Assembly: GCA_016214955.1 (NCBI GenBank)
Contig: JACRMN010000002.1
Location: 1-64,000, forward strand
Length of the DNA: 64,000 nt
Reading direction: 5' to 3'
DNA from: Deltaproteobacteria bacterium
GTDB lineage: Bacteria; Myxococcota; Myxococcia; Myxococcales; Anaeromyxobacteraceae
Within the stretch, counting starts at the first letter, position 1. Each line of letters opens with the position of its first letter. Made by a program: the position numbers and the translations under genes. Of the stretch, positions 1-62,013 are shown one piece after another. A model generated the notes under the pieces. That model ran no database searches. It had not been told where the DNA came from and was given only the letters and a program-made list of their open reading frames with translations.

Positions 1-1
1 C

Positions 2-79
2 GGCGCGGCTGCCGGCGCGGCGGTCTCGATCCTCTCCGGCCCGGTGAAGAAGCCTGTGGCCCAGGCCTCCAAGGCCTAA
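2..79 (+). CDS. 3' end of 99-aa repeat-family membrane protein (copy 1, cut by window edge)
   Basis: Only the last 25 codons are inside the window. They match the C-terminus of the complete copies at 4334 and 11496 (…SILSGPVKKPVAQASKA) almost residue for residue, and end with TAA. The family is a small membrane protein rich in Gly, Ala and Val with no function I recognise. The rest of this copy, including any sigma-54 promoter, lies to the left of the window, so I cannot say whether it is intact. Confidence 0.75.
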   Translation, partial: GAAAGAAVSILSGPVKKPVAQASKA

Positions 80-103
80 GCTCCCCGCACCCTCGCAGCA
101 GAC

Positions 104-131
104 GCGGCCCGGGCCTCTCGGCTCGGGCCGC
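104..131 (+). terminator. Hairpin in repeat tail, copy 1
   Basis: A 28-nt sequence folds into a 12-bp stem (one G-T wobble) with a TCTC loop; the outer arms are GCGGCCCG and CGGGCCGC. It begins 24 nt after the stop codon of copy 1 and the same hairpin follows all five copies in the window. No T-run follows, so it is not a classical Rho-independent terminator, but a transcription-stopping or RNA-stabilising role is the simplest reading. Confidence 0.6.
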
Positions 132-144
132 TGCCGTTCCCAGG

Positions 145-178
145 CCCGCTCCCGCCGCGGTGGTTTGCGGGAGGCGGG
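145..178. promoter_or_regulatory. Imperfect inverted repeat upstream of the kinase-TPR gene
   Basis: CCCGCTCCCGC (145-155) and GCGGGAGGCGGG (167-178) are nearly complementary, 11 nt apart, and lie 38 nt before the GTG start at 216. It could be an operator or a leader hairpin. GC-rich DNA produces such pairs easily, so support is weak. Confidence 0.25.
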
Positions 179-215
179 CGCGGGCGCGTAGCATCGAGCC
201 CTTCCCGGGGGGCTC

Positions 216-3092
216 GTGGGCGAAGCAGAAGGCCAGGCGCGCGGCGACCTGACGGCCCTCCTCGAGGCGCTGGCGAAGGCGCCCGAGCCCGGCGGAGCCT
301 GGGCGGAGGAGCTTTGTCCCGGCGAGACGCTGGACCGCTTCCAGGTGCTGCGGGAGCTGGGGCGGGGCGGGTTCGGCGCGGTCTACGAGGCGCTCGACCG
401 CGAGCTGGGCCGGCGGGTGGCGCTGAAGACGCTGCGGCCGGGGCGCGCCCGCGACGAGTGGGCCGGCGCCGCCATCCGCGCCGAGGCGCAGGCGGCGGCG
501 CGGCTCTCGCACCCGGGCATCGTCACGCTCTACGAGGCATGCACCTGCGAGAAGGGGCCCTACCTGGTGCTGGAGCTGCTCCACGGGGAGACGCTGGAGG
601 AGCGGCTTCTCCGCGGGCCGGTGCCGCTCGCCGAGGCACTGGAGATCGGTCAGCAGACGGCGCGGGCGCTGGCCTACGCGCACGGCGAGGGGCTGGTGCA
701 CCGCGATCTCAAGCCCGCCAACCTGCACCTGGGCGAGGACGGGCGGGTGAAGCTGCTCGACCTGGGGCTGGCGCACCTGCTTGGCGGAAAGGCGCAGTCG
801 GGGGGGACGCCGGCCTACGTGGCGCCGGAGCAGTGGCTGGGACAGCCGGTGGACGGCAAGGCCGACGTCTTCTCCCTGGGGGCGGTGCTCCACGAGCTGC
901 TCTCGGGACGGCGGCCGTTCGAGGTGAAGGAGGGGCGAAGCGCTGCGCTCGACGGCGAGGCGGCGCCGCCGCTGGCGGGGAGGCAGCCGCGGCGGCTCGC
1001 GGCGCTGGTGGCGCGGTGCCTCTCCGCGAAGCCGGGGGAGCGGCCCACGGCGGCGCAGGTGGCCGAGGAGCTGCGCGGGCTGCAGCAGGCCCAGGCCCGG
1101 CCGAGGCAGCTCCGACGCCTGGCGCTGCTGGCGGTGGCAGGCGCCGCGGCCGGCGCGCTCCTGGCCGGCCTGGCCATCCGGTGGCTCTCGCCCAGCGTGC
1201 CGGCGCCCGGTCCCGACGGGCGCATCGTGGTGGCGGTGGCCGACTTCGCCAACGAGACCCGCGACCCGGAGCTGGACGGGCTCTCCGACCTGCTCATCAC
1301 CTCGCTCGAGCAGTCGCAGCGGCTCCGGGTGCTGACGCGCAGCCGCATGGTCGACGTGCTCCGGCAACTCGGCAAGACCGGGGTCGAGCGCATCGACGAG
1401 CGGCTGGGGCGCGAGGTGGCGCTGGCCGCCGGCGGGCGCGCCCTGGTGGTGGCCACCCTGCGCCGCTTCGAGGCTCTGTACGCCATCGACCTCAAGGTGC
1501 TCGATCCGGTGACCAGCGAGTACCTGGTCACCTTGAAGGAGGAGCGCGCCGGCAAGGCCTCCATCCCCGGCATGCTCGACCGGCTCTCGGCGCGGACCCG
1601 CGAGCGCCTGCGCGAGAGCCCCGGCGAGGTCAGCGCCTCGCAGGTGCACGTCGCCGAGGCTGTCACCGCGAACCCCGAGGCCTGGGGCCACTACGCCGAG
1701 GGGCTTCGCCACGAGAGCGCCACCGACAACCTGCGCGCGGTCCTCGCCTACCGCAGGGCGGTGGCCGCCGACCCGCGGTTCGCGCTGGCCCACTACCGGC
1801 TCGCCTACCTGGGCGAGTACGCGGGGCTCGACCGCGCGGTTCGCGAGGCCTCGATGGAGGCCGCCTACCGGGAGGTGGAGCGGATGCCGGCCAAGGAGCG
1901 GCTCCTCTTCCACGCCTGGAAGGCGCATGTCGACGGGCGCGACGCCGACGCCCTGGCCCTGTACTCCCGTGCCGCCGAGGCCTATCCGCTCGACAAGGAG
2001 GTGCTGTACCTCGCAGGCGACCTCTACCTCCACCAGGGCAGGGCGGCGGAGGCGCTGCCGTGGTTCGAGCGAGCGGTGGCCCTCGACCCCACCTGGCCCG
2101 AGGCCCAGAAGCATCTGCTCCAGGACGCGCTTCCCATGCTGGGCCGTGGCGAGGAGGCCCTGGCGCGGGCGCGCGCCAGGGCAGAGGCCTCTCCGGGGCT
2201 CGCCACGCGCAACACCGTCGTCTTCCTCCTCAGCGCCCTCCGGCGGCACGACGAGGCCCTGGCACTCTCCCGCCAGGGGGCGGAGCGGGATCCCGGGCGC
2301 GTCTCGCGCGCCTGGCTGCTCACCAGCCTGGTCCTCGCCGGCCGCTACCAGGAGGCCGAGGCGCTGGCGCGCTCGGGCGTCGCCGCGCCCTCGTCGGACG
2401 ACCCGCTGGCCGACGCCGGCCCCCTGGCGGCGGTCCTCGAGCACCAGGGCCGGCGGCGCGAGGCGCTGGCCGCGCTCGAGCCCGGACGAGCGCCAGACCT
2501 CCATCCCGAGGTCCGCCGCTGGGCCCGCTGGGCCCTCCTCATGGACCAGCGCGACAGGCGGCCCGCGCTGGCCATGGCCGAGGGGATCCGGCAGACCGGC
2601 GAGACCAGGCAGGGGCTGTTCACCGGGTACTTCCTGCTCGGCGAGGACCGGCGCGCCGCCGAGTCGGCGGTGGGGCTCCGGGGATACGACCGGGAGCTGT
2701 ACGAGGGCATCCTCCTCTGGCGGCGCGGCGACGCGGTCGCGGCTGCCGCGCGGCTGCGCCCGCTCCTCTCGGCCGACCCCAACCGCCGCGACTTCTGGAG
2801 CTGGTGGTTCTCCTACGTGGCCTTCGACGCCCACCTCGACGCCGAGGCCATCGCCGCCGCCGATCGGTTCGAGGCCTCCCGGTACTACGCCCTCGTGCCC
2901 TGGCGCGGCTGGGGGCTCGCCCGCCTGCAGGTGCGCAAGGCCGAGGCCCAGGCGCGGCTCGGGGACCGGGCCGCGGCCCTGGCCACGGTCGATCGGCTCC
3001 TCGACCGCTGGAAGCAGGCCGACCCCGACCTTCCGCTCCTCGCCGAGGCACGCGCCCTCCGGCGCCGGCTGGCCTCGGCGCCGGGCCGCTGA
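216..3092 (+). CDS. Membrane Ser/Thr protein kinase with FlgO/TolB-like and TPR domains
   Basis: 958 aa with a GTG start after a G-rich ribosome-binding site. The kinase domain spans about 42-285: glycine loop GRGGFG (49-54), VALK lysine at 71, HRDLKPAN (162-169), a DLG variant of the DFG motif (182-184) and APE (203-205). One membrane segment lies at about 301-323. A domain starting GRIVVAVADFANET (336 on), of the type found in TPR-coupled kinases and cyclases, follows, and the rest is tetratricopeptide repeats. The kinase is therefore cytoplasmic and the TPR part probably periplasmic. It lies between repeat copies 1 and 2. A scrap of a paralogue's C-terminus sits beside repeat copy 4 (10018-10083). 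Its substrate is unknown. Confidence 0.9.
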   Translation: MGEAEGQARGDLTALLEALAKAPEPGGAWAEELCPGETLDRFQVLRELGRGGFGAVYEALDRELGRRVALKTLRPGRARDEWAGAAIRAEAQAAARLSHPGIVTLYEACTCEKGPYLVLELLHGETLEERLLRGPVPLAEALEIGQQTARALAYAHGEGLVHRDLKPANLHLGEDGRVKLLDLGLAHLLGGKAQSGGTPAYVAPEQWLGQPVDGKADVFSLGAVLHELLSGRRPFEVKEGRSAALDGEAAPPLAGRQPRRLAALVARCLSAKPGERPTAAQVAEELRGLQQAQARPRQLRRLALLAVAGAAAGALLAGLAIRWLSPSVPAPGPDGRIVVAVADFANETRDPELDGLSDLLITSLEQSQRLRVLTRSRMVDVLRQLGKTGVERIDERLGREVALAAGGRALVVATLRRFEALYAIDLKVLDPVTSEYLVTLKEERAGKASIPGMLDRLSARTRERLRESPGEVSASQVHVAEAVTANPEAWGHYAEGLRHESATDNLRAVLAYRRAVAADPRFALAHYRLAYLGEYAGLDRAVREASMEAAYREVERMPAKERLLFHAWKAHVDGRDADALALYSRAAEAYPLDKEVLYLAGDLYLHQGRAAEALPWFERAVALDPTWPEAQKHLLQDALPMLGRGEEALARARARAEASPGLATRNTVVFLLSALRRHDEALALSRQGAERDPGRVSRAWLLTSLVLAGRYQEAEALARSGVAAPSSDDPLADAGPLAAVLEHQGRRREALAALEPGRAPDLHPEVRRWARWALLMDQRDRRPALAMAEGIRQTGETRQGLFTGYFLLGEDRRAAESAVGLRGYDRELYEGILLWRRGDAVAAAARLRPLLSADPNRRDFWSWWFSYVAFDAHLDAEAIAAADRFEASRYYALVPWRGWGLARLQVRKAEAQARLGDRAAALATVDRLLDRWKQADPDLPLLAEARALRRRLASAPGR

Positions 3093-3208
3093 CGCTCGGC
3101 CGCCGTCCCCACGACCTCCCACACCCGCTGTCCGCCGTTCCCGCCGGACTCGTCGGCGGGATCCGACAGCAGGAGTGCGCAAGTGCCCGGAATCCGGTGC
3201 CGGAGGAG

Positions 3209-3224
3209 TGGCAGGGCACGTGCA
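3209..3224 (+). promoter_or_regulatory. Sigma-54 (-24/-12) promoter, copy 2
   Basis: TGGCAGGGCACGTGCA fits the sigma-54 pattern: the GG and GC elements are separated by exactly 10 nt, within TGGCA…TGCA. The same 16 nt occur at the same distance from the ATG in copies 3 and 5. It would need an ATP-dependent enhancer-binding protein; a GTCGG-N6-CCGAC inverted repeat about 40 nt upstream is a possible binding site. Confidence 0.6.
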
Positions 3225-3297
3225 ATCTCTCTGGCCATACGGCGCACGGCGCCGAGAGCCTCGAAGGCAAACGCAGACCAACCCACGGAGAAACACC

Positions 3298-3406
3298 ATG
3301 AACCGCAAGACCCCCACTCTCATCGGCGCCGGCGTCGGACTCGCTGTCTTCCTGGCGGTCGGCCTCCTGCCTGCCCTGCTGTACGGCGGCTACGCCCAAG
3401 GCCTAA
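3298..3406 (+). pseudogene. Truncated 99-aa repeat-family gene (copy 2)
   Basis: The first 32 codons (MNRKTPTLIGAGVGL… to LLYGGYA) match the intact copies. A deletion then fuses them out of frame to the final codons, so the ancestral stop (3404-3406) is no longer read. Reading continues to 3576 and would run antisense over the last ~100 nt of the nucleotidyltransferase gene. The promoter and start are intact, so a chimeric product with one membrane segment is possible, but I treat the gene as broken. Confidence 0.8.
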
Positions 3407-3430
3407 GCTCCCCGCACCCTCGCAGCAGAC

Positions 3431-3458
3431 GCGGCCCGGGCCTCTCGGCTCGGGCCGC
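3431..3458 (+). terminator. Hairpin in repeat tail, copy 2
   Basis: Identical in sequence to the hairpin at 104-131: a 12-bp GC stem with a TCTC loop. It stands between the broken copy 2 gene and the convergent nucleotidyltransferase gene (stop at 3479-3481), so it could end transcription from either side. Confidence 0.6.
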
Positions 3459-3478
3459 TGCCGTTCCCGGCCTGCAGA

Positions 3479-3934
3479 TCAGCGCCCGCGCAGGCGGGCC
3501 AGCATGTCCAGGTCGGCCAGGTCCTGCGGCCGCCCGCTGGCTCGCTTGTTCTGCTCCAGGTGGCGCCGCGAGATGACCGGGACCTCCTGCCCGCCGTAGG
3601 TGGTGGCGGCGCGGTCGGGCCAGGCCTCTTCGAAGGTCACGCCATCGACGGAGGTGAGGACGTCGATGCGCACCGGGGCGACGCCGATCTGGAAGACGAT
3701 GCCGGGGGTCGCGAGGTCGAATGGCCGAAGCTCGCCGAGCGGTGCTCCGAAGCGCCCCAGCGCCCGGTGTACCCGGGCAGCATTCTCCGCGGTGGGGTTC
3801 ACCCAGACATCGAGGTCGCGCGTGTAGCGGGGCGCGGCGTGCACGGCCAGCGCATAGCCGCCGACGAGCAGGTACTCAGCCGCCTCGGCGTTCAATGCAG
3901 CAAACAGATCGCTGAAGTCGGGGTTCGGGTCCAT
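3479..3934 (-). CDS. MNT-fold nucleotidyltransferase (DUF6036/AbiEii-like)
   Basis: 151 aa. It has the pattern of small pol-beta-type nucleotidyltransferases: EYLLVGGYALAVH near residues 20-32, the metal-binding DLDVW shortly after, and a third acidic position in RIDVLTSVD. Such proteins resemble AbiEii/MNT toxins or antitoxins that modify RNA or proteins with nucleotides. Its 5' end overlaps the upstream partner gene by 59 nt in another frame, which implies translational coupling. The pair lies between repeat copies 2 and 3, so it looks like cargo. Activity as a toxin is inferred from relatives, not shown here. Confidence 0.8.
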   Translation of the reverse strand: MDPNPDFSDLFAALNAEAAEYLLVGGYALAVHAAPRYTRDLDVWVNPTAENAARVHRALGRFGAPLGELRPFDLATPGIVFQIGVAPVRIDVLTSVDGVTFEEAWPDRAATTYGGQEVPVISRRHLEQNKRASGRPQDLADLDMLARLRGR

Positions 3935-4109
3935 CCGGGCTCCGCCAGGCCAGGTCCTCGAGGACCAGAGTCCACACCGCTGCCATGCGCTCCGATGGCG
4001 TCACCGAGTGCCAGAAGTCGCGATCGAAGGCGCCGTCGTCGCCGTGCAGCGCAACGAGGCGGCTCCTTCCGGTGGCGCGGCGCGCACGAGCGTCCATGGC
4101 CGCCATCAT
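3876..4109 (-). CDS. Small partner protein of the nucleotidyltransferase
   Basis: About 73-77 aa; ATG codons at 4109, 4106 and 4097 are all possible, and a GAGGT stretch lies just upstream of the first. The features FDRDFWHSVTPSERMAAVW and a C-terminus of the PEPRLQRSV type match, from memory, a small family found directly upstream of this nucleotidyltransferase type, with a conserved WxxxxxxER-like core. The last 59 nt are read in a second frame as the start of the nucleotidyltransferase. A toxin-antitoxin-like or regulatory pairing is inferred. Confidence 0.7.
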   Translation of the reverse strand: MMAAMDARARRATGRSRLVALHGDDGAFDRDFWHSVTPSERMAAVWTLVLEDLAWRSPDGPEPRLQRSVCCIERRGG

Positions 4110-4244
4110 ACCTCAGGGCTCCGCTCGAGCCGGCCGGCCGCCCGGCTCGCGCTCCCACACCCGCTGTCCGCCGTTCCCGCCGGACTCGTCGGCGGGATCC
4201 GACAGCAGGAGTGCGCAAGTGCCCGGAATCCGGTGCCGGAGGAG

Positions 4245-4260
4245 TGGCAGGGCACGTGCA
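4245..4260 (+). promoter_or_regulatory. Sigma-54 (-24/-12) promoter, copy 3
   Basis: TGGCAGGGCACGTGCA has GG-N10-GC spacing. A start about 12 nt downstream would give an untranslated leader of roughly 60 nt before the ATG at 4334. Conservation in three copies, while flanking bases vary, supports function. Confidence 0.65.
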
Positions 4261-4333
4261 ATCTCTCTGGCCATACGGCGCACGACGCCGGGAGCTTCGA
4301 AGGCAAACGCAGACCAACCCACGGAGAACCACC

Positions 4334-4633
4334 ATGAACCGCAAGACCCCCACTCTCATCGGCGCCGGCGTCGGACTCGCTGTCTTCCTGGCCGTGGGCC
4401 TCCTGCCCGCGCTGCTGTACGGAGGCTACGCGGGCGTGCTCCTGGCGGGCGGCTTCGTGGGCACCCCGGTGCAGCCGACGCTGTTCGTCCGGGCCCTCAT
4501 CGTCTTCGGGATGGCGCTGGGCGTCGTCGGGGTGGGCAGCCTCTTCGCGGTGGGCGGCGCGGCCGCCGGCGCGGCGGTCTCGATCCTCTCCGGGCCGGTG
4601 CGGAAGCCGGCCGCCCAGGCCTCCAAGGCCTAG
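4334..4633 (+). CDS. 99-aa glycine-rich membrane protein (repeat-family copy 3)
   Basis: 99 aa with a short basic N-terminus (MNRKTP) followed by two or three hydrophobic stretches: about 8-30 (LIGAGVGLAVFLAVGLLPAL), 34-45, and 52-86, the last ending in a small-residue GxxxGAAAGAAV helix. The C-terminus is basic (…RKPAAQASKA). This predicts an inner-membrane protein with glycine-zipper packing. It differs from copy 5 at only three residues. I do not recognise a family. An unknown enhancer-binding protein would control it through the sigma-54 promoter. It could be a holin-like, pore or stress-response protein, but nothing in the sequence decides this. Confidence 0.75.
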   Translation: MNRKTPTLIGAGVGLAVFLAVGLLPALLYGGYAGVLLAGGFVGTPVQPTLFVRALIVFGMALGVVGVGSLFAVGGAAAGAAVSILSGPVRKPAAQASKA

Positions 4634-4658
4634 GCTCCCCGCAGCCCTCGCAGCAGGC

Positions 4659-4686
4659 GCGGCCCGGGCCTCTCGGCTCGGGCCGC
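4659..4686 (+). terminator. Hairpin in repeat tail, copy 3
   Basis: The same 28-nt stem-loop as in the other tails. Here it follows an intact gene by 25 nt and lies before the convergent regulator gene whose stop is at 4740. Confidence 0.6.
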
Positions 4687-4739
4687 TCGCGTCTGCAGGG
4701 AGGGGATGCGCACCCGACAGCCGAGCGGGACGCGAAGGA

Positions 4740-7574
4740 TCAATCCCCCGGCTTGCTGCTGAGGCGCCGACCGGAGCCCTTTCGCGGCTGGCCCGGGGGC
4801 GGTGTCTCCGTCGAGCGTTCCGTCCGACCCCGGGAGGCGTCCCGGGCGGGCCTCGCGGCGTCGGTGAGGGCCGCGAGGCTGGCCATCGCGCGCTGCTCGA
4901 GGCTCCGGGCTCCCGTCGAGCGCGCGCGCTCGATGGCCTCTTGGTAGTCCCGGCTCGCCGCGGCGGGATCGGCTCCCTGCCGCTGCTCGCCACGCATCCG
5001 CAGCAGCTCGGGCAGGTACACGCTCTCGTCGTGCGCGAGCGCGAAGTCGATGATCTCGTCGGTCAGCCGCTGCGCCTGGGGGGCATGCCCGGAGCTTCTC
5101 AGCACCTCGATCAGCACCTGCGCGAGCAGGGTGGAGCAGGTCGAGACCTCGTTCAGCCGCTGGCGCAGGGCATCGAGGTGCGGCTCGATGGCGGGCAGCG
5201 CGAGCGGCTCACGCAGGGCCTCCGCCCACAGCGCGAAGGCGCGCGCCTCGGTGTGCAGGCCCAGGTCCAGGGCGGACACGCGAACGGCCTGTCGTGCCTC
5301 TGCCTCGACGACCGCCAGCGGATCGCGGCGCAGGAAGCGCAGCCGCGCGCGCACCACGTGTCCGAGCGCCTGCAGGATGGGGAGCCCGAGCCGGTCCGCC
5401 AGCTCGATCGTCGCGAGCGCCTCCCCGAGCGCGCGGTCGGCGTCGCCGACGACCCAGCGCAAGCAGGCGAGGTGGCCGAGCGCCAGGGCCCTCCCCGGGA
5501 GGTTGTCGCGAAACGGCGACGCCTCCCCCTCCGCGGGCACCAGGCGCTCGAGCAGCCGCAGCGCGGTGCCGAGATCGGCGCTGAAGAAGGCGGTGTAGGC
5601 CCGGGCGAAGATCCCGCCGTGGAGGAGCACGGGGTCGAGGTCGTGCGCCTGCTCGATCTGCTCGAGCTCGGCGGCCAGCGGCCTCGAGCGATCGTACTCG
5701 GCGACGATCATGTTGTAGTTGCACAGGTGGGTGATCGCCGAGTACAGGCTCGGAGGGTCGCCCAGCGAGCGGGCGATCTCGATGGCGCGGGCGTGGACCG
5801 CGAGTGGCTCCCGCCCCGCAAAGGCCGCGCTGAAGGTGTTCGAGCTGACCTGTCGGCACAGCGTCTCGTGGACCTGGAGCTCGAGCAGGTCGCGCTCGCG
5901 GCCTGCGGCCACGCCCGGCAGCAGCTGCAGCGCGCGCGTGCAGAGGGCGACGGCGTCCGAGGTCGCGTTGCGCAGGCCGGCCTGGCGTCCCGCGCCCGCG
6001 TAGGCGGCGACCGCGCGGGCCGCGTCGCCTGCCGCGTCGAAGTGCTTCGCGAGCAGGTGGGAGAGCTCGCCGGAGCGCGGGTCGCGCTCGATGGCCTCCG
6101 CGATGAGCCGGTGCCAGCGCTGGCGGCGCAACGGGCTGCTGCGCTCGACGCATACCTCCTGGACCAGCGCATGGGTCATGCCATAGCGATCGCCGGGCTC
6201 CGCGCGCAGGAACAGCGAGCGGCGCAACAGCCCATCGCACGTTTCGTCGACCTGCTCGACCGGCATCTCCAGCGCGGCGGCGACCAGGCCGGTGGAGAAT
6301 TCGGAGCCCACCACGCTGGCCGCCTCGAGCACGCGCTGCTCGGTCGCAGACAGGCGGTCGAGCTGGATGTCGATGAGCTGCTTCACGCTGGCGGGCCGGT
6401 GCGCCTCCACCTCGCCGATCGAGACCGCCAGGGTCCACTGGCCGTCGCGCTCGGTGAGCATCTCCCGGCCGGCCAGCTCGTCGAGCAGCGACACCATGAA
6501 CAGCGGCGTCCCGCCGGTGATCTTCGTGACCAGGCTGGTCAGCTCCCCGGGAAATGCATGCCCGGGGAACCGCCGATCGATGAAGGTCTGCACCGCGGCG
6601 GCGCTGATGCTCGGCACCTCGACGGCCAGCGCGCCCGAGCGGGCGACCAGGGATCGCATCACGGGATAGAGCGGGTGGTCACCGCCCTGGACCTCCGCGC
6701 GTCGCAAGGTCCCGAGCAACAGCAGCCTGGCGGGCTCCTGCCGCTGGGCCAGCAGGGACAGCAGGTCGATCGTCGCGACGTCGGACCACTGCAGGTCCTC
6801 GAGCGCCAGCACCAGCGGCTCGCGCCAGCAGAGCGCCTCGAGGGCCTGGCTGAGCTCGCGGAGCTGCCGGGCCTCGTTGCCGCCGGCGGCGCGCCGCGCG
6901 ACCTCGGCGAGCTGCTCGTCGGGGATGAGCTGCGGCACCTGTGCCGCGAAGGTCGGCGCGTACCGGACCAGCGCCGCCAGCGTCTGCGGACCGCGCGGGG
7001 AGCGCACGAGCGCCGCCAGCGCCTCGATGATGGCGAGGTACGGCTCGGGGGTGCCGTGCTGCTCGAAGCACGATCCGCGGGCGACGATCACCGTGCGCGG
7101 ATCGAGGCCCGCGAGGAAGGTCCGGACGATCGTCGACTTGCCGATCCCTGGCTCGCCGGTGACGAAGCACAGCTGCCGGTGGCCTCCACGCGCCCGCTCG
7201 AGCGCCGCGCGCAGGACCTCCAGCTCCGCCTCGCGACCGACCACGAGAGGGTCGACGTGCCCGGGCCCCGCGCGCGCGTCGACGCGCTCGCCGAGCTCGG
7301 CCACGAACCGGTAGCCGCGCCCGATCACCGTCTCGATCACGCCCTCGCCCAGCACCTGCCGGAGCTCGTGCAGGTGGCTGCGCACCGCGCTGTCACTGAC
7401 CACGTCGCCGCGCCACACCTGCGCCAGCAGCTCCTCGTGGGTGACCAGTTTCCTCGGGTGCGCGGCGAGGTAGCACAGGATCGCGAACGGCTTGCGGCGC
7501 AGGGAGAGCGGGCGGTCGTCCTTCCAGAGCAGGCCTTCGTCGGCGTCCAGCCGAAACGGGGGAAAGAGGACCAT
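4740..7574 (-). CDS. Winged-helix transcriptional regulator with AAA ATPase and TPR-like domains
   Basis: 944 aa from the ATG at 7574, chosen because MVLFPPFRLDADEGLLW is the usual beginning of an OmpR/PhoB-type DNA-binding domain; an in-frame start at 7688 would add an unrelated tail. The winged helix covers about 1-95. A P-loop ATPase follows, with Walker A GEPGIGKST near residue 145 and Walker B-like LVLALEDLQW. A long helical region with TPR-like character fills the C-terminal half. Such proteins are cytoplasmic signal-integrating ATPase regulators whose ligand is usually unknown. It is divergent from the universal-stress gene at 7724, with an inverted repeat in the 149-nt gap, so self-regulation and control of that group is likely. 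Confidence 0.88.
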   Translation of the reverse strand: MVLFPPFRLDADEGLLWKDDRPLSLRRKPFAILCYLAAHPRKLVTHEELLAQVWRGDVVSDSAVRSHLHELRQVLGEGVIETVIGRGYRFVAELGERVDARAGPGHVDPLVVGREAELEVLRAALERARGGHRQLCFVTGEPGIGKSTIVRTFLAGLDPRTVIVARGSCFEQHGTPEPYLAIIEALAALVRSPRGPQTLAALVRYAPTFAAQVPQLIPDEQLAEVARRAAGGNEARQLRELSQALEALCWREPLVLALEDLQWSDVATIDLLSLLAQRQEPARLLLLGTLRRAEVQGGDHPLYPVMRSLVARSGALAVEVPSISAAAVQTFIDRRFPGHAFPGELTSLVTKITGGTPLFMVSLLDELAGREMLTERDGQWTLAVSIGEVEAHRPASVKQLIDIQLDRLSATEQRVLEAASVVGSEFSTGLVAAALEMPVEQVDETCDGLLRRSLFLRAEPGDRYGMTHALVQEVCVERSSPLRRQRWHRLIAEAIERDPRSGELSHLLAKHFDAAGDAARAVAAYAGAGRQAGLRNATSDAVALCTRALQLLPGVAAGRERDLLELQVHETLCRQVSSNTFSAAFAGREPLAVHARAIEIARSLGDPPSLYSAITHLCNYNMIVAEYDRSRPLAAELEQIEQAHDLDPVLLHGGIFARAYTAFFSADLGTALRLLERLVPAEGEASPFRDNLPGRALALGHLACLRWVVGDADRALGEALATIELADRLGLPILQALGHVVRARLRFLRRDPLAVVEAEARQAVRVSALDLGLHTEARAFALWAEALREPLALPAIEPHLDALRQRLNEVSTCSTLLAQVLIEVLRSSGHAPQAQRLTDEIIDFALAHDESVYLPELLRMRGEQRQGADPAAASRDYQEAIERARSTGARSLEQRAMASLAALTDAARPARDASRGRTERSTETPPPGQPRKGSGRRLSSKPGD

Positions 7575-7640
7575 CGAATGGAGACCTAGCGGGGGCGGAT
7601 CCACGCCGCGAGCGCTCGCGATGGACCAATCGGGGGCCGA

Positions 7641-7656
7641 TCCAACGCGGATTGGA
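7641..7656. promoter_or_regulatory. Candidate operator between divergent regulator and uspA-like gene
   Basis: TCCAACGCGGATTGGA is a perfect 5-bp inverted repeat (TCCAA/TTGGA) around 6 nt. A further ATCCAACGG half-site lies at 7671-7679 and ACCAATCGG at 7624-7632. The cluster sits in the only gap between the divergent genes, where a winged-helix regulator would bind. Confidence 0.4.
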
Positions 7657-7723
7657 CGCCGGCAGGCCGGATCCAACGGAGAGCCCACGGCCGTCGAGGG
7701 GGGCCTCCGGCATCTTCAGGCGC

Positions 7724-8182
7724 ATGCAAACCCTCCGACAGCTCGTCTCCGGCACCGACTTCAGCGCATGCGCGGCGGACGCCCTCGAGCAGGCCATCGC
7801 GCTCGCGCTCGCCGCCTCCGCGCGGGTCACCCTGGTCCACGTCCAGGAGCATGGCGACGACGAACTCGACGACCGCCTCCTCCTCCAGTGCCAGGCGGCG
7901 CTGTCCGAGCTCGTGTCCCGGCATCGGCGCCGCGGCGTCGAGCTCACCGGCGTCCTCCGCCGGGGCAAGCCGTGGGCCAAGCTCGACAACGTCGCCGCCG
8001 AGGTCGGGGCCAGCCTGATCGTGGTCGGCCGGCACGGCGCCGGCCGCGGGCGGAGCCTCGACCTCGGCTCCGTGGCGGCGCACCTGGTGCGCGCCGCCAA
8101 CCGGCCCGTGCTGGTCGTGGGCTGCGGCTGCGATCCCGACCGCCACCCCGCTGAGCCGCAGGAAGCCAACACCTCACCCTGA
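7724..8182 (+). CDS. Universal stress protein (UspA family)
   Basis: 152 aa from the ATG at 7724. It has the UspA fold pattern: an N-terminal LVSGTDFS strand with its aspartate, RVTLVHVQEH, and the nucleotide-binding motif IVVGRHG…GSVAAHLVRAANRPVLVV near the C-terminus, a form of the G2xG9xGS/T ATP-binding consensus. Usp proteins are cytoplasmic stress factors. It is first in a run of four genes and only 13 nt ahead of the outer-membrane protein gene, so they are probably co-transcribed. Confidence 0.88.
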   Translation: MQTLRQLVSGTDFSACAADALEQAIALALAASARVTLVHVQEHGDDELDDRLLLQCQAALSELVSRHRRRGVELTGVLRRGKPWAKLDNVAAEVGASLIVVGRHGAGRGRSLDLGSVAAHLVRAANRPVLVVGCGCDPDRHPAEPQEANTSP

Positions 8183-8195
8183 AAGGAGAAGCACC

Positions 8196-8723
8196 ATGAA
8201 GAACCTCGGAACCCCGCCCGCAGCACCCTCCCGGCGCGCGCCGCGCACGCTCCTGGCCCTCGCCGCCCTCCTCCTGTCGGTGCAGGTCGCCGCGGCCGAG
8301 GGGCACCACTCTGGCTGGAGCATCAACTTCACCCCCGTGCTCATCCTGCCCTCGGGCGGGTATCGCCTCGGCTGGGGGGTCGACCCGGAGCTGAAGTACA
8401 CGCTCGATCTGGGCGAGGCGCGGTTCAGCGCCGGTGGCCGCGTGGGCGTGAGCCACGCGAAGAACCAGCTCGGCGTGACGGTGATGCCGACGCTCCGTCT
8501 GACGGTGCCGATCGGCAGGGTCGAGCCCTACGCGTCCGCCGGCCTGGGCTACGGCTGGCTCCCGGAGGCCGGACGCGACGGCGTGGCGACCATGGGTCGG
8601 CTCGGCCTCGTGTACCGGTTCAGCGAGCGCCTCGCGATTGGCCTGGAGGGCACCCTCCAGCGCATCGATGGCTCCCGGCACCAGTTCCGGTCCCTCGGCT
8701 CGATGATCTCGTTCGATCTCTAG
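8196..8723 (+). CDS. Small outer-membrane beta-barrel protein
   Basis: 175 aa with a strong ribosome site (AAAGGAG) before the ATG. A signal peptide runs to about 35 (LLALAALLLSVQVAAAE). The rest alternates short amphipathic strands with turns (FTPVLILP, ELKYTLDLG, RVGVSHAKN, PTLRLTVPIG, PYASAGLGYGW) and ends in ISFDL, giving a C-terminal aromatic pattern typical of barrels recognised by BamA. Its length suits an eight-stranded OmpA/OmpW-like barrel. The ligand is unknown. Confidence 0.75.
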   Translation: MKNLGTPPAAPSRRAPRTLLALAALLLSVQVAAAEGHHSGWSINFTPVLILPSGGYRLGWGVDPELKYTLDLGEARFSAGGRVGVSHAKNQLGVTVMPTLRLTVPIGRVEPYASAGLGYGWLPEAGRDGVATMGRLGLVYRFSERLAIGLEGTLQRIDGSRHQFRSLGSMISFDL

Positions 8724-8761
8724 GAGCGGCCGTGTCCTTCACAGCCAAATCGGAGGAAGCC

Positions 8762-9442
8762 ATGAGCCGCTCTCGCCTTGCAGACTCCCTGGCCGTGGCC
8801 GGCCTCATCCTGCTCGGGATCGTGCCTGCGATCGCCGGATCGATGCGCCTGCGCCAGATCGCCGGGGGGATCGCGACCGCGGACAACGCGCGCTTCCTGG
8901 CGATGCCGTGGCCGGTCGTGGTGCACATCGTCGGTGCGATCCTCTTCGCGCTGCCCGGTGCGCTCCAATTCTCCGCGGAGCTTCGGCGGCGCCGGATGGC
9001 GTGGCACCGCCTGGCGGGTGCCATCCTCGTCCCCTGCGGCCTCGCCGTGTCGCTGAGCGGGCTCTGGATGGCGCAGTCCTACCCCCGGGTGGACCTCGAC
9101 GGAGCGGTGGTCTACGGGATGCGCATCCTCGTCGGCGCGCTGATGACCGCCTCCCTGTGGCTCGGGGTCTCGGCCGTGCGCAGGCACGACATCGCGGCGC
9201 ATCGTGCGTGGATGATGCGGGCCTACGCCCTGGCGATGGGCGCCGGTACCCAGGTGCTCACCCACCTGCCCATGATGGTCGCCCCGTCGCTCTGGAGCGA
9301 GCTCTCGCGGGCCATCGCCATGGGTGCGGGGTGGGCCATCAACATCCTCGTCGCCGAGCTCCTCATCCAGCGATCCGCGCACCCCGGGGCGGCGGGCAGG
9401 GAGGCCACGCCGGCCCTTCGCCTTCCGGCAGGCCTTCCATGA
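8762..9442 (+). CDS. DUF2306-type integral membrane protein
   Basis: About 226 aa from the ATG at 8762 (CGGAGGAAGCC before it); an ATG at 8732 lacks a good ribosome site. Six or so hydrophobic helices are visible, with the family-typical pattern: a central WHRLAG motif after a helix ending LQFSAELRRRR, and AAHRAWMMRAYAL near residue 150. The function of DUF2306 proteins is not established. The stop overlaps the next gene's start (ATGA), so the two are translationally coupled. Confidence 0.75.
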   Translation: MSRSRLADSLAVAGLILLGIVPAIAGSMRLRQIAGGIATADNARFLAMPWPVVVHIVGAILFALPGALQFSAELRRRRMAWHRLAGAILVPCGLAVSLSGLWMAQSYPRVDLDGAVVYGMRILVGALMTASLWLGVSAVRRHDIAAHRAWMMRAYALAMGAGTQVLTHLPMMVAPSLWSELSRAIAMGAGWAINILVAELLIQRSAHPGAAGREATPALRLPAGLP

Positions 9443-9945
9443 CCACGGCCATGGAGTTCGTCCTCCGAAGCGCCCTCATCGGCATCGGTGCCACGCTGGT
9501 CATGGACCTCTGGGCGGCCCTGCTCCGACGCCTCGGCGTCTCCTCGCTGGACTTCGCGCTGCTCGGGCGCTGGATCGGCCACCTCCCCCGGGGCCGCCTC
9601 ATCCACGTCAGCATTGCCGGGACTCCCGCGGTTCGAGGCGAGCGGCTCATCGGCTGGTCCGCGCACTACTCGATCGGCATGGCCTTCAGCGCGCTCCTGC
9701 TCGCGACGTTCGGGCTGGAGTGGGCGCGCGCGCCGACGCTGCTCCCCGCGCTGCTCATCGGGGTCGTGACGGTCCTCGCGCCCTGGCTCGTGCTCCAGCC
9801 CGCGCTGGGTGCGGGGGTCGCTTCGTCCAGGACGGCCCGTCCCGTCTTCAACAGCGTCAAGAGCCTGATCACGCACACGGTCTTCGGGTTCGGGCTCTTC
9901 GTCGCCGCGCGCGTCCTCGCCTTCCTTCTTCCCGCCACCCGCTGA
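9439..9945 (+). CDS. DUF2938 family integral membrane protein
   Basis: 168 aa with four hydrophobic segments. The start MEFVLRSALIGIGATLVMDLW, the RWIGHLPRGR segment and the stretch TARPVFNSVKSLITHTVFGFGL fit the DUF2938 family. Its ATG overlaps the TGA of the DUF2306 gene. Pairing of two uncharacterised membrane families under a stress-protein gene suggests a shared envelope task, which is inference. Confidence 0.75.
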   Translation: MTTAMEFVLRSALIGIGATLVMDLWAALLRRLGVSSLDFALLGRWIGHLPRGRLIHVSIAGTPAVRGERLIGWSAHYSIGMAFSALLLATFGLEWARAPTLLPALLIGVVTVLAPWLVLQPALGAGVASSRTARPVFNSVKSLITHTVFGFGLFVAARVLAFLLPATR

Positions 9946-10017
9946 CTCTCGGGCTGTTCACGAGCGTCAGGCAACGACCCGCGACAACGGATGAGCCGGG
10001 CCGCGGGGTGACTGCGC

Positions 10018-10083
10018 GCCGACCCCGACCTGGCCCAGCTGCAGGACGCCCGGGCGCTGCGGAAGCGGCTCGTCGCGCGCTGA
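10018..10083 (+). pseudogene. C-terminal scrap of a second kinase-TPR gene
   Basis: 21 codons read DPDLAQLQDARALRKRLVAR then TGA. They align with the end of the intact kinase-TPR protein (DPDLPLLAEARALRRRLAS, 3031-3092). No matching sequence precedes 10018, so a paralogue was lost except for its last helix. The scrap lies a few bases before the repeat-tail remnant at 10091, the same neighbour the intact gene has. Confidence 0.65.
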
Positions 10084-10090
10084 GCGAGAG

Positions 10091-10183
10091 GCCTGCCGCC
10101 CAGGCCTCCAAGGCCTAGCCTCAGCGCAGCCTCGCAGCAGGCGCGGCCCGGGCCTCTCGGCTCGGGCCGCTGCCGTTCCCGGG
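10091..10183 (+). repeat. Dispersed repeat unit, copy 4 (tail only)
   Basis: It begins within the last codons of the 99-aa gene (GCCCAGGCCTCCAAGGCCTAG), continues through the conserved spacer CAGCCTCGCAGCAGGCG and the hairpin, and ends in CTGCCGTTCCCGGG like copies 1 and 2. Leader, promoter and the first ~90 codons are absent. The gap from 9946 to 10260 holds only this, the kinase scrap and the start region of the next gene. Confidence 0.8.
10143..10170 (+). terminator. Hairpin in repeat tail, copy 4
   Basis: The same 28-nt stem-loop (12-bp stem, TCTC loop), kept although the gene it once followed is gone. Confidence 0.55.
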
Positions 10184-10260
10184 GGACGGGCATCCAGCCC
10201 GCACCGCGTTCGCCATGGTTCCGGGCCAGCGCACGGCCCGATCCAGTAGACTCGCGCGCC

Positions 10261-11256
10261 GTGAAGACCGCCTTCGTCACCGGTGCCGCAGGCTTCCTCG
10301 GCGTGAACCTCGCCGCCGTCCTCCGCGAGGCCGGCTGGCGCGTCGTCGCCGTCCATCGGCCCGCCTCCCGCCTGTCCAGACTCCGCGCCCTGGGCGTGGA
10401 GCTGCTTCCCGGCGACCTCCACGACCAGGCCTCGCTGGAGCGCGCCATGCCCGATGGCGCCGACGCCGTCTTCCACGTGGCCGGCAACACCTCGGTCTGG
10501 TCGGGAAACGACGCCGTTCAGACGCGGGACAACGTCGATGGCACGCGCCACGTGGCGGCCGCCGCGCTGGTGCGCGGCGCGCGCCGCCTGGTCCACACCT
10601 CGAGCGTGGCGGTCTTCGGGCTGGGCGCGGGTCGCGTGGACGACGAGACGCCCCCCGCCGAGAGCTGCTGGGTGAACTACTACCGCACCAAGCGCCTCGC
10701 CGAGCGCGAGGTGGAGGAGGCGGCGGCCCGCGGGCTCCCGACGGTGGTGCTCCGCCCCGGCAACATCATCGGCCCCGAGGATCGCACCACCTGGGTCCAG
10801 CTCGTCCGGCTGGTGGCGCAGGGCCGCCTGCCGGGAACGCCGCCCGGCCGAGCCTCGTGGTGCCACGTGCGCGAGGTGGCCCGCGCCCACCTCGCCGCTG
10901 CCGAACGGGGCCGGCCGGGGTCGGCCTACGGGCTCTCCTGCGTGGAGGCCAGCTACGCCGAGTTCGTCGCCAGCGTCGCGGCCGCCACGGGGGGACGCGC
11001 GCCGCCCGTCCTGCCCGCCGTGGCCCTGCGCGCTTACGCTCGCTTGCTCGCGCTGGGGAGTGCGCTCACCCGCCGTCAGCCCGCGGTCACGCCCGAGGGC
11101 GTCGCCGCCACGTGCAACCGGATCACCATGGACTCCTCCCGGGCCCAGCGGGAGCTCGGCTACCAGCCCGCGACGCTCCAGCAGATGGTCGCCGACTGCG
11201 TGGCCTGGCTCCGGTCCGAAGGGCTCTTGCCGGGCGAGGCCGGTCACCGGCCCTAG
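10261..11256 (+). CDS. NAD(P)-dependent epimerase/dehydratase (extended SDR)
   Basis: 331 aa with a GTG start. The Rossmann motif TGAAGFLG (7-14), the DxxD-like GDLHD, HVAGNTSVW, the catalytic Ser region VHTSSVAVFG and the YxxxK catalytic pair in NYYRTKRLAE define an extended short-chain dehydrogenase. It resembles hopanoid-associated or 3-beta-hydroxysteroid/flavonoid-type reductases more than sugar epimerases, but the substrate cannot be told. It stands alone between repeat copies 4 and 5, as a cargo gene. Confidence 0.85.
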   Translation: MKTAFVTGAAGFLGVNLAAVLREAGWRVVAVHRPASRLSRLRALGVELLPGDLHDQASLERAMPDGADAVFHVAGNTSVWSGNDAVQTRDNVDGTRHVAAAALVRGARRLVHTSSVAVFGLGAGRVDDETPPAESCWVNYYRTKRLAEREVEEAAARGLPTVVLRPGNIIGPEDRTTWVQLVRLVAQGRLPGTPPGRASWCHVREVARAHLAAAERGRPGSAYGLSCVEASYAEFVASVAAATGGRAPPVLPAVALRAYARLLALGSALTRRQPAVTPEGVAATCNRITMDSSRAQRELGYQPATLQQMVADCVAWLRSEGLLPGEAGHRP

Positions 11257-11406
11257 ACCGCGCCTCGGTCGATTCGGCCGCCGCTCTCACGCCCTCCCAT
11301 ACCCACACCCGCGAAAGCGCCCCGGCTGTCCGCGGTTTCCGGCGCCCTCGTCGGGGGGATCCGACAGGAGGGATGCTCAAGTGCCCGGAATCCGGTGGCG
11401 GGGGAG

Positions 11407-11422
11407 TGGCAGGGCACGTGCA
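11407..11422 (+). promoter_or_regulatory. Sigma-54 (-24/-12) promoter, copy 5
   Basis: TGGCAGGGCACGTGCA is identical to copies 2 and 3, although the surrounding leader has diverged. That selective conservation is the best argument that it is a working promoter. Confidence 0.65.
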
Positions 11423-11495
11423 CTCTCTCTGGCCATACGGCGCACGACGCCGAGAACCTCGAAGGCAAACGCAGACCAACCCACGGAGAACCACC

Positions 11496-11795
11496 ATGAA
11501 CCGCAAGACCCCCACTCTCATCGGCGCCGGCGTCGGACTCGCGGTCTTCCTGGCGGTCGGCCTCCTCCCGGCCCTGCTGTACGGCGGCTACGCCGGCGTG
11601 CTCCTGGCGGGCGGCTTCGTGGGCACCCCGGTGCAGCCGACGCTGTTCGTCCGGGTCCTCATCGTCTTCGGGATGGCGCTGGGCGTCGTCGGCGTGGGCA
11701 GCCTCTTCGCGGTGGGCGGCGCGGCCGCCGGCGCGGCGGTCTCGATCCTCTCCGGGCCGGTGAAGAAGCCGGTGGCCCAGGCCTCCAAGGCCTAG
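11496..11795 (+). CDS. 99-aa glycine-rich membrane protein (repeat-family copy 5)
   Basis: 99 aa, nearly identical to copy 3; the differences are FVRV for FVRA and KKPVAQ for RKPAAQ. It has the same basic N-terminus, two or three membrane helices and small-residue C-terminal helix. Near identity at protein level with many silent differences in the DNA suggests selection on the protein rather than only recent copying. No family recognised. Confidence 0.75.
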   Translation: MNRKTPTLIGAGVGLAVFLAVGLLPALLYGGYAGVLLAGGFVGTPVQPTLFVRVLIVFGMALGVVGVGSLFAVGGAAAGAAVSILSGPVKKPVAQASKA

Positions 11796-11813
11796 CCTCA
11801 GCGCAGCCTCGCA

Positions 11814-11857
11814 GCAGACGCGGCCCGGGCCTCACGGCTCGGGCCGCTCGCGTCTGC
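11814..11857 (+). terminator. Extended bulged hairpin in repeat tail, copy 5
   Basis: The common GC hairpin is flanked here by a second perfect arm pair, GCAGACGC (11814-11821) and GCGTCTGC (11850-11857), giving a long stem with a small one-sided bulge. The loop is TCAC instead of TCTC. Copies 1 and 2 keep the left arm but lack the right one. Confidence 0.55.
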
Positions 11858-12098
11858 AGGGGAGAGGTATCCCTCCACTCCGAATTCGACGCAGTTCCGT
11901 CCCGGCGGGCGGACGGTGGAGCGGAGATCTGGCAGCCCTTCACGGGCAGTCCCCTCTTCCCCCGGCGGACGTCATCCCGCTCCGAGCGTCCGAGTCGACG
12001 CGCCCGCCCCGGACCCGGCCCGGGCCGCCCCCTCCACTGGCAGTCCCGGCCCTGCCGCACTACGCTCCAGGGACCCGCCCACTCCGCCGGAGCACCCC

Positions 12099-13322
12099 AT
12101 GGCCCTGCCCCCGCTCGCGCTGCTCCCCGCCATCCTGCTCGCCGCCGCGCCGCCGGCCCCCGCGGAGAGCGCCCCCTTCGCCTCGCTCGCCGAGCTGGAC
12201 GCGGCCATGGGGGAGGTGGAGCATGGCGCGGCGGTGGAGCCGTTCTGGGCGAGGGTGCAGGCGGCCCGGGCGATGCCGCTCCTCTTCGGCGAGACGGCCG
12301 TGTTCCTGCACCGCTCCCGCGCCGACAAGGTGGAGTGGCGCGGCGACATCACCACCTGGGACGGCGCGCCGGAGACGGCCGGGCGCCGCCTGGGCCGCAG
12401 CGACGTCTTCACCCTCCGGCGCACCTTCCCCCGCGGCGCGCGGCTCGACTACAAGATCGTCGAGACGACCGCGACCTGGATGGTTGATCCGCTCAACCCC
12501 CATCGGCAGCTCGGCGGCTACGGCCGCAACTCCGAGGTGCGGATGCCCGGCTGGTCTCCTCCGGCCCACGCGATCCGCAGGCCCGGCGTCCCGGCGGGCA
12601 CCTTCGGGCCGGCGGAGCTGGTGGAGAGCAGGAAGCTCGGCTACGGCGTGAACGTGCGCGTCTACACCCCCGTCATCCCGGCGGGCGGTCCCTCGCGCCT
12701 GCCCATCCTCTACGTGACCGATGGCTCCGACTACTGGCACGAGGAGATGGGCAGCCTCCCGGCGACGCTCGACAACCTCATCGCCGAGCGGCGCATCCCG
12801 CCGCTGGTGGCGGTCTTCGTCGATGCCTGGGATCCGATGCACCAGGTCAACCGGCGGGAGGTGGAGTTCGTGCCGAACCGCGACGACCCGGCGAAGCCCA
12901 TCCAGGCCTGCCCGTACTGCGAATTCCTGGTGGAGGAGCTGGCGCCCAGGGTCGAGGCGCGCCTCGCCGTCGATCCGTCGCGCCGCGGGATTCTCGGCAC
13001 CTCCTGGGGCGGGTTCTTCGCCGCCTACCTGGCTCTCCGCCACCCGGAGCGCTTCCCGCTCGTCGCCATCCAGAGCCCGGCCATCGGCCGCCAGCCCTGG
13101 CTGCTCCCTGCCATCGCCGGCGCCGCCGCGGTGCCGCGCCGGGTCGCAGTGGACGTGGGGCTCTTCGAGCCGTGGGCGCTGCCGGGCGCCCGCGGCCTGC
13201 GGGATGCCTACCGCGCGCGTGGCGCCACGGTGCACCACGACGAGCTCCCGGACGGCCACTCCTGGGGCCACTGGCGAGCCGCCGTCGCGCCGATGCTCGA
13301 GTTCCTCTACGCGGAGCGGTGA
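12099..13322 (+). CDS. Enterochelin esterase-like exported alpha/beta hydrolase
   Basis: 407 aa with a signal peptide to about residue 23 (LLPAILLAAAPPAPA). An N-terminal beta-sandwich resembling the Fes/glycan-binding domain (VEWRGDITTWDG… WMVDPLNP) precedes an esterase-D-type hydrolase. The nucleophile elbow is GTSWGG near residue 305, and the C-terminal histidine sits in DGHSWGHW. It probably hydrolyses ester bonds of a siderophore or another secreted ester in the periplasm; the substrate is inferred from the family only. It marks the end of the repeat-rich region. Confidence 0.85.
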   Translation: MALPPLALLPAILLAAAPPAPAESAPFASLAELDAAMGEVEHGAAVEPFWARVQAARAMPLLFGETAVFLHRSRADKVEWRGDITTWDGAPETAGRRLGRSDVFTLRRTFPRGARLDYKIVETTATWMVDPLNPHRQLGGYGRNSEVRMPGWSPPAHAIRRPGVPAGTFGPAELVESRKLGYGVNVRVYTPVIPAGGPSRLPILYVTDGSDYWHEEMGSLPATLDNLIAERRIPPLVAVFVDAWDPMHQVNRREVEFVPNRDDPAKPIQACPYCEFLVEELAPRVEARLAVDPSRRGILGTSWGGFFAAYLALRHPERFPLVAIQSPAIGRQPWLLPAIAGAAAVPRRVAVDVGLFEPWALPGARGLRDAYRARGATVHHDELPDGHSWGHWRAAVAPMLEFLYAER

Positions 13323-16344: not shown

Positions 16345-16946
16345 GGGCTGTCGGTGCGGTGCGGTTCGGAAGGGGCCGCGCCCAGCGGCGCGCGCAGGAG
16401 CGGCTCGTAGCGCGGCCCGGAGGGAGAGAGGTGGGAGCGGAAGAGGGTGAGCTCGCCGGCGCGCCAGGTGCCGGCCTCGCGGGCGCCGAGGGCCGCCAGG
16501 GCGCCGGCGAGGCCGGAGGCGCCGTCGCGGGCCCGCGCCAGCGTCAGGTGCGGGGAGAAGGGGCGCTCGTCGGGCGGGAAGCCGAGGGGCGCGAGCCGCG
16601 CACCGAGGTCGCGCACCAGCGCCCCCAGCGGCTCCAGCTCGCCGTGCAGGCCGGCCCAGACCACCCGGGCGCGCCGCGGGCTGGGGAAGGCGCCGACGCC
16701 CCGCACCGAGAGCGCCAGAGGCCGGCCCGCGGAGGCCGCCGCCGTCACCGCCGCCTCCACGTCGCCGAGCCGCTCGTCGGGGGCGTTGCCGAGGAACTGG
16801 AGGGTCAGGTGCAGGCTGCCCGGCTCCACCCAGCGCAGCCGCTCGGCCGCCCGCCCCGCCTGGCGGCGCAGCTCGGCCGCGAGCGCCGCCAGCTGGCGGC
16901 GCAGGGGCGCGGGCGGGTCGAGGGCCACGAAGAGGCGCAGGGGCAC
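16341..16946 (-). CDS. thpR: RNA 2',3'-cyclic phosphodiesterase (2'-5' RNA ligase family)
   Basis: 201 aa, the usual size. Two HxT(L) motifs characteristic of the 2H phosphoesterase fold are present: HLTL in SLHLTLQFLG near 47 and HLTL in FSPHLTLARAR near 132. The enzyme opens 2',3'-cyclic phosphates on RNA ends in the cytoplasm. It is coupled to the DUF748 gene by an ATGA overlap. Confidence 0.9.
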   Translation of the reverse strand: MPLRLFVALDPPAPLRRQLAALAAELRRQAGRAAERLRWVEPGSLHLTLQFLGNAPDERLGDVEAAVTAAASAGRPLALSVRGVGAFPSPRRARVVWAGLHGELEPLGALVRDLGARLAPLGFPPDERPFSPHLTLARARDGASGLAGALAALGAREAGTWRAGELTLFRSHLSPSGPRYEPLLRAPLGAAPSEPHRTDSP

Positions 16947-16988
16947 GGGCCAGAGACTACTGCCGTTGCGCCCCGCCGGCGCGACCTT

Positions 16989-18359: not shown

Positions 18360-18435
18360 GCGGCCTCCTCCGCGCGACTGTAGACGAAGCCCGGTGGGCG
18401 GGGGCCGCTCCGGAAGGGCTGCCCGCGCTCCGGCG

Positions 18436-20304
<1,869 letters not shown>

Positions 20305-47129: not shown

Positions 47130-47196
47130 CTGCGTTCCCTGGTGGGCCGCAAGCCGCGCAGCCGGCGCGTCCGGCGGAGCGGCGTGCGGAGCGTGC

Positions 47197-61562: not shown

Positions 61563-61680
61563 CGAGGCAGGGTAGCGCCCGCCTCGCCGGTGCGCATGGG
61601 GCCAGGCGGGGCGCGGGAATCGAGAGCGTGGTCGAGGTCGGGGTCGGGGCTGGGGTCGCGGCCGAGGCCGGAGCGGGCCT

Positions 61681-61891: not shown

Positions 61892-62013
61892 CAGCTCGTC
61901 AGCTTGCGGCCACGTTCGGCCTTGCGCCCGCTGGTGCGGGGCGCTCTATTCCATCCGTGTGCGGCGCGCCGTGGGCCTCGGCAATCCCCCGGCCAGCCAA
62001 CGAGAGCCGGCAA

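Follow-up and report, generated by a model that had tools for sequence, protein, structure and literature searches.

A putatively sigma-54-controlled small membrane protein family whose duplicated units probably form recombining direct repeats within an integrase-less hotspot of Anaeromyxobacteraceae

Overview

The repeated units at the start of the window, that is, the whole 64-kb stretch of DNA that was analysed (G000:C29:1-64000), probably represent an undescribed gene family under sigma-54 control, with the duplicated units acting as recombining direct repeats inside a transfer hotspot that lacks an integrase. In each full unit, the palindrome GTCGG-N6-CCGAC, a sigma-54 promoter, the gene of a two-helix membrane protein and a hairpin follow one another in this order. 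Together with the 5' leader, this arrangement of operator palindrome, promoter, gene and hairpin tail would make an intact unit a self-contained transcription unit.

Organization of the repeated units

Self-comparison of the 64-kb window located five direct copies of the unit, of which three are cut or broken and two are whole (Table 1). The five copies listed in the initial annotation were all recovered in place, with corrected extents. All copies of the array point in the same direction, head to tail, and they number five or six when the unit at the end of contig C12 is counted. Copy 1 is cut by the start of contig C29, and its absent 5' half very probably corresponds to the unit at the end of contig C12 (284600-284879 of 284879, the last 280 nt). 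The exact copy order could be partly wrong, as the breaks of contigs C12 and C29 fall inside units. Copies 3 and 5 are 93% identical over 541 nt (4160-4700 vs 11322-11861), and copies 2 and 3 are 97% identical (3116-3395 vs 4152-4431). Copy 2 and the C12-end unit have an extra 33 nt of left flank in common and are 99.4% identical over 313 nt; because their homology reaches 33 nt further left than that of the other copies, the left edge of the unit is not fixed. In three genera, copies within one genome are homologous only from about -214 to +440 relative to the start codon, and no further than the unit edges.

Copies 2 and 4 are deletion scars. The internal deletion in copy 2 would leave its gene non-functional, and copy 4 is a tail fused to the end of a lost kinase-TPR gene. 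Outside the array, the same genome has two further paralogues in tandem, at C26:39053 and 39392 (88% and 59% identity). Contigs of two other genomes, G012 (C3, C10, C12, C15, C63 and C143) and G017 (C343 and C405), also begin or end inside units, and the unit copy numbers in these genomes are therefore lower bounds.

Apart from the units, the 64 kb contain a single comparable repeat, an unrelated intergenic pair at 46914-47133 and 61674-61892 (223 nt, 87% identical), which folds with -155 and -134 kcal/mol and has a closing inverted repeat of about 20 bp. This pair is possibly a MITE or a structured RNA; Rfam gave no match to it or to anything else in the window.

Table 1. Positions of the unit copies, their elements and the neighbouring genes in the window
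Feature	Position	Strand	Basis or remark
Unit copy 1, 3' part only (end of the 99-aa gene and hairpin tail)	1-133	+	92-93% to copies 3 and 5
Ser/Thr kinase with TPR repeats	216-3092	+	Pkinase 2e-49
Unit copy 2, leader and promoter intact, about 190 nt deleted within the gene	3083-3475	+	Alignment
Operator palindrome, copy 2 (sigma-54 site 3209-3224)	3152-3167	+	Motif search
Nucleotidyltransferase (AbiEii-like), two-gene module	3479-3934	-	
77-aa partner ORF of the nucleotidyltransferase	3876-4109	-	Module homology with G002
Unit copy 3, whole	4152-4702	+	Self-comparison
Operator palindrome, copy 3, GTCGGCGGGATCCGAC	4188-4203	+	Dyad scan and motif search
Sigma-54 -24/-12 promoter, copy 3, TGGCAGGGCACGTGCA	4245-4260	+	Motif search
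99-aa two-helix membrane protein, copy 3	4334-4633	+	Present in 23/24 family genomes
AAA_16/winged-helix regulator	4740-7688	-	
Universal stress protein	7724-8182	+	Usp
Outer-membrane beta-barrel protein	8196-8723	+	
DUF2306 membrane protein	8732-9442	+	
DUF2938 membrane protein	9439-9945	+	
Kinase-TPR remnant, last 22 codons and stop, translation RADPDLAQLQDARALRKRLVAR followed by the stop	10015-10083	+	Comparison with kinase C-termini
Unit copy 4, tail only, recombinant tail type (A2, B1)	10088-10183	+	86-93% to other tails
NAD-dependent epimerase/dehydratase	10261-11256	+	
Unit copy 5, whole	11289-11861	+	Self-comparison
Operator palindrome, copy 5 (sigma-54 site 11407-11422)	11350-11365	+	Motif search
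99-aa protein, copy 5	11496-11795	+	97% to copy 3
Esterase, accessory, right of the array	12099-13322	+	PF00756; island by position
DUF748/AsmA-like gene, right part of the variable spot	13432-16344	-	
Right core border: thpR-like gene (16341-16946) and glmS (18436-20304)	16341-20304	-	

The 99-aa protein family

The family of this small membrane protein is undescribed. The 99-aa protein has no match in Pfam, NCBIfam, PHROGs or the PDB; a fold comparison against the PDB returned nothing with E below 3, and a sequence profile against the PDB returned nothing. The literature search for a sigma-54 study in Anaeromyxobacter likewise yielded nothing on the 99-aa gene. In the model of the copy 3 protein (pLDDT 81.6), two long helices are predicted, at 4-42 and 50-85. 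A phage origin was considered and rejected, as none of 42 members matched PHROGs.

The family occurs in 23 of the 24 genomes of the Anaeromyxobacteraceae, usually in two copies and in up to about nine in genus g6. Outside this family, only three other Myxococcota genomes among about 170 contain it, the search for distant homologues having drawn mainly on a single phylum. Most genomes carry the two copies as single units, each next to conserved genes. Between copies 3 and 5, dN is 0.017 and dS is 0.128 (dN/dS about 0.13), and this low dN relative to dS indicates purifying selection on the small protein. Together with the presence in 23 of 24 genomes, these values agree with the earlier suggestion that the small protein is kept by selection.

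Operator and promoter of the unit

The sigma-54 link proposed in the initial annotation proved to be much stronger than could be known at that stage. A sigma-54 promoter was recognized by a -24/-12 element with GG and GC 10 nt apart, conserved upstream, and the unit family carries such an element: TGGCA-N7-TGCA lies at most 150 nt upstream of 44 of the 58 unit genes and of none of the 576 other genes of the same loci. An assumption-free dyad scan additionally found GTCGG-N6-CCGAC in 37 of 56 leaders, while shuffled sequences gave at most 4 for any dyad; by exact count, the palindrome is present in 38 of 57 leaders. The distance from the palindrome to the -24 element, start to start, is 56, 57 or 58 nt in all 37 leaders having both. 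When the whole genome of the window was searched for the operator-promoter pair, six matches were obtained, five of which are units and the sixth of which lacks TGGCA; in the 24 whole genomes, the palindrome plus promoter matched almost only units. The palindrome is absent from the distant homologues of the unit. Most leaders also contain a third conserved stretch, similar to CAACCCCGCGGAATC, between the palindrome (4188-4203 in copy 3) and the -24 element (4245-4260).

This layout resembles that of sigma-54/NtrC-family regulons, with a -24/-12 promoter, an upstream palindrome and, in several genera, nearby genes for a histidine kinase and an NtrC-type activator. On the other hand, the operator-promoter matches in each genome are nearly all copies of one small gene, and the spacing between palindrome and promoter is nearly invariant here (56-58 nt).

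Association with a cytochrome, histidine kinase and NtrC module

In genera g3 and g6 and in one g5 genome (G017), the gene has a cytochrome bc gene on one side and mreB, a peptidase gene or other genes on the other. Besides this cytochrome bc (7 CXXCH motifs and a b561 domain), the module after the unit gene encodes a histidine kinase and an NtrC-type activator, and its longer versions also a dodecahaem cytochrome. The unit heads or adjoins the cytochrome module in distant relatives as well: G163, from another family of the same class, has the gene order of the g3 and g6 module; in G118, from another family of the same order, the unit is followed by the cytochrome; and the Wallbacteria record L085 carries NtrC, the unit and the cytochrome in succession. 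The neighbourhood link thus draws on two Myxococcota lineages outside the family and on the Wallbacteria record. The 26 genomes that carry the unit are exactly those that have the cytochrome at 40% identity or more (an approximate limit), an agreement that is strong in number, but for which the limit was set after seeing the data and in which the genomes are clustered by descent. G010 has neither, and weaker cytochrome matches (30-37%) occur without the unit.

The cytochrome bc gene has a sigma-54-like site of its own, GGGCA-N7-TGCA, 32 nt before its start in several g3 and g2 genomes (for example L129 upstream of 2598, L200 and L206). A role of the palindrome as the general operator of the cytochrome bc gene was rejected; among the family members checked upstream, only G005 has it.

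The module occurs with no unit in g1 (the genus of the window), in g2, in g4 and in two genomes of g5; in the genome of the window, it is located on another contig with no unit beside it. This implies that the gene moved elsewhere with its promoter; within the family, duplication and relocation of the gene included its operator and promoter. All copies would stay under one activator, most likely the NtrC of the module, judging from the gene neighbourhood, and the small protein may serve the quinone-linked cytochrome system. Rather than being primarily a platform, the unit gene is conserved across the family and has deep homologues in the cytochrome/histidine kinase/NtrC module.

In terms of domain layout alone, the module cytochrome is similar to CbcL of Geobacter, an inner membrane protein in which nine c haems are joined to a dihaem b domain (PMC9129911), as it combines a multihaem c-type part (7 CXXCH) with a membrane part of b561 type. 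It differs in having fewer haem motifs and in the presence of a dodecahaem partner, histidine kinase/NtrC genes and the two-helix protein in the neighbourhood.

The variable interval between recA and thpR/glmS

DNA searches against the 24 family genomes used 20 kb from the window and 19 kb from the C12 end. The core genes of the C12 end (a LETM1-like-domain gene and the RecA protein) and those after the array (thpR-like, glmS and glmU) adjoin in relatives, in an orientation that fits the joining of the C12 end to the C29 start. Since these core genes are adjacent in relatives, the C12 end and the C29 start are chromosomal neighbours, and the array is located in an island of about 33 kb from recA to thpR/glmS. 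The recA gene at L127 1484-2557 borders the hotspot here and in relatives. In the relatives, the same interval spans 0.15 to about 17 kb and contains mostly different genes. The distance from recA to thpR is 0.15 kb in G007 and G018 and 1.3-5 kb in several others; in G012, 16.7 kb separate recA from glmS, and the first gene is Wzc-like; and in two genomes of the same genus as the window, kinase genes adjoin thpR. None of the relatives among the 24 family genomes has a unit at this spot, and the variability of the spot in relatives without the unit means that units are not needed for it.

The initial annotation reported no transposase or integrase, which holds for every island protein tested; no tRNA gene is present either, and an island anchored by an integrase, a transposase or a tRNA was rejected accordingly. 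From gene content, the recA-thpR/glmS interval qualifies as a gene-turnover hotspot in the sense of Oliveira et al., with variable genes between core genes, although the published definition adds a statistical excess; with no integrase, transposase or tRNA, it falls among the hotspots lacking mobile elements. Hotspots of horizontal transfer without recognizable mobile elements change by homologous recombination (Oliveira et al. 2017, PMC5635113). The likeness to them includes variable content between fixed core genes, the lack of integrase, transposase and tRNA, and mostly strain-specific genes. In those hotspots, recombination is proposed at the flanking core genes (PMC5635113), whereas here repeats inside the spot also recombine with one another.

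Cargo genes between the units

The idea of variable cargo is supported: in 23 relatives, the epimerase has a single close homologue and the AAA regulator none, and in no relative was synteny of the inter-unit genes observed. Gene calling relied on a simple script based on codon position in place of a standard annotator. The kinase is one of a large set of paralogues, at least 15 in the same genome. G002 (80% identity) and G009 (74%) also contain the nucleotidyltransferase module (3491-4145), there with no units; the homology to G002 covers 3491-4145 and ends at the unit edges. The kinase, nucleotidyltransferase and esterase have counterparts on the C12 side in the same order (47%, 31% and 37% identity, respectively). 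A recent tandem duplication of whole blocks was rejected, as these cargo paralogues are 31-47% identical and the units 92-99%. A defence island was also rejected; the PADLOC matches comprise generic protein-kinase models and a weak AbiEii match.

The C12 side carries a second small repeated gene family (L127 6140-6346, 11048-11227 and about 17475-17642, the third being a DNA match), whose proteins of 68 and 59 aa have one hydrophobic stretch and are 71% identical.

Recombination between units

The tails of the units contain two variable blocks, block A being CTCCCCGCA or CTCAGCGCAG and block B being TGCCGTTCCC or CGCGTCTGCAGG. All four combinations of these blocks are present (four-gamete test): A1B1 in copies 1 and 2, A1B2 in copy 3, A2B1 in copy 4 and A2B2 in copy 5. 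Convergence of two multi-base blocks is unlikely, and the four combinations therefore indicate that the copies exchanged DNA between A and B. Because block B leads into the flank, such an exchange can alter the neighbour of a unit. In another genus, G015 has a mosaic copy whose 97.6% match to another copy begins just upstream of the start codon. The cytochrome locus of G015 also has a second unit (L106) with two genes between, and that of G007 has one unit; this difference is suggestive of cargo that varies between orthologous units, the collections searched having yielded no closer strain pair. Recombination at units, as postulated initially, is thus evident from the tail combinations and from the mosaic copies of G015.

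Discussion

Close direct repeats of 0.3-0.55 kb in a region open to foreign DNA would be substrates for RecA-type homologous recombination and gene conversion. Recombination between the units would delete, duplicate or exchange the intervening genes, as a by-product rather than an evolved function. The initial annotation went further and viewed the units as a cassette platform, in which they are kept as homologous landing sites and unit-bearing DNA is gained or lost by crossing over at them. We consider this unlikely, and the same doubt applies to an integrase-free platform in which RecA crossing over at the units would swap the genes beside recA while selection keeps the sites, likewise in at least one other genus. 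The direct orientation of all copies, the tail recombination with its change of adjoining flank, the mostly unique cargo, the exact fit of the unit-free nucleotidyltransferase module between two units and the contrast of G015, with cargo between two units, to G007 are all in keeping with a platform. However, relatives vary the recA-thpR/glmS spot without any unit, the two copies in most genomes sit singly beside conserved genes, and the collections searched yielded no circular form, no shared cassette and no strain pair differing solely by an inter-unit cassette. Variable cargo and unit recombination stand; that the units are the site of cassette gain and loss is possible but less probable, given that the spot varies in unit-free relatives. 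The initial annotation had itself named, as evidence against a platform, a housekeeping gene with one copy in most relatives combined with inter-unit genes that are syntenic everywhere; the gene is indeed conserved, at about two copies in most relatives, and no relative showed synteny of the inter-unit genes. The superficial likeness to integron gene cassettes is that a repeated element alternates with unrelated genes. Here the repeat is a promoter-gene-terminator with varying edges, no integrase was found among the island proteins tested, and no attC-like boundary was seen; an integron cassette array, which would have an IntI integrase and attC sites at the cassette ends, was rejected.

Somewhat less likely than a platform is an old segmental duplication of the kinase, nucleotidyltransferase, esterase and unit, followed by divergence or loss of the cargo, with gene conversion preserving similarity in the units alone. 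The same order of the three homologues on the C12 and C29 sides, the evident sequence exchange between units and the kinase remnant that precedes copy 4 would fit this history, but the similarity of the nucleotidyltransferase and esterase is too weak to prove a block duplication, the kinase is one of a family with at least 15 members in the genome, and the AAA regulator, stress genes and epimerase have no counterpart. Little weight is given to an assembly artefact, by which short-read collapse or misjoining of similar copies would have made the deleted and tail-only copies: although C12, C29 and several contigs of G012 and G017 end inside units, assemblers can usually resolve a divergence of several per cent such as that between the copies, unique cargo adjoins every junction, copy 4 follows a kinase remnant and not another unit, and the whole copies 3 and 5 are independent of such misjoining. 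Slightly less weight still goes to a small non-autonomous, MITE-like mobile element moved by an enzyme encoded elsewhere. Homology confined to a compact unit of 0.4-0.65 kb at unrelated sites in three genera would be expected of such an element; an alignment of all copies in the genome of the window nevertheless showed no terminal inverted repeats and no consistent target duplication, the edges vary, the orientation in the array is uniform, a conserved coding gene lies inside, and there are at most about 10 copies per genome. The 7-bp GCTCGCG flanking copy 3 was dropped as a candidate target duplication, as copy 5 has the same right end and no left partner.

Taken as direct repeats that probably recombine within an integrase-less hotspot, the units offer a case in which copies of a conserved gene, and not an integrase, tRNA or IS, supply the recombining repeats of a gene-turnover hotspot, and the array gives a concrete way to test whether such repeats drive cassette exchange. 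In addition, the neighbourhood and co-occurrence of the small protein with a CbcL-like cytochrome module make its role in respiration directly testable.
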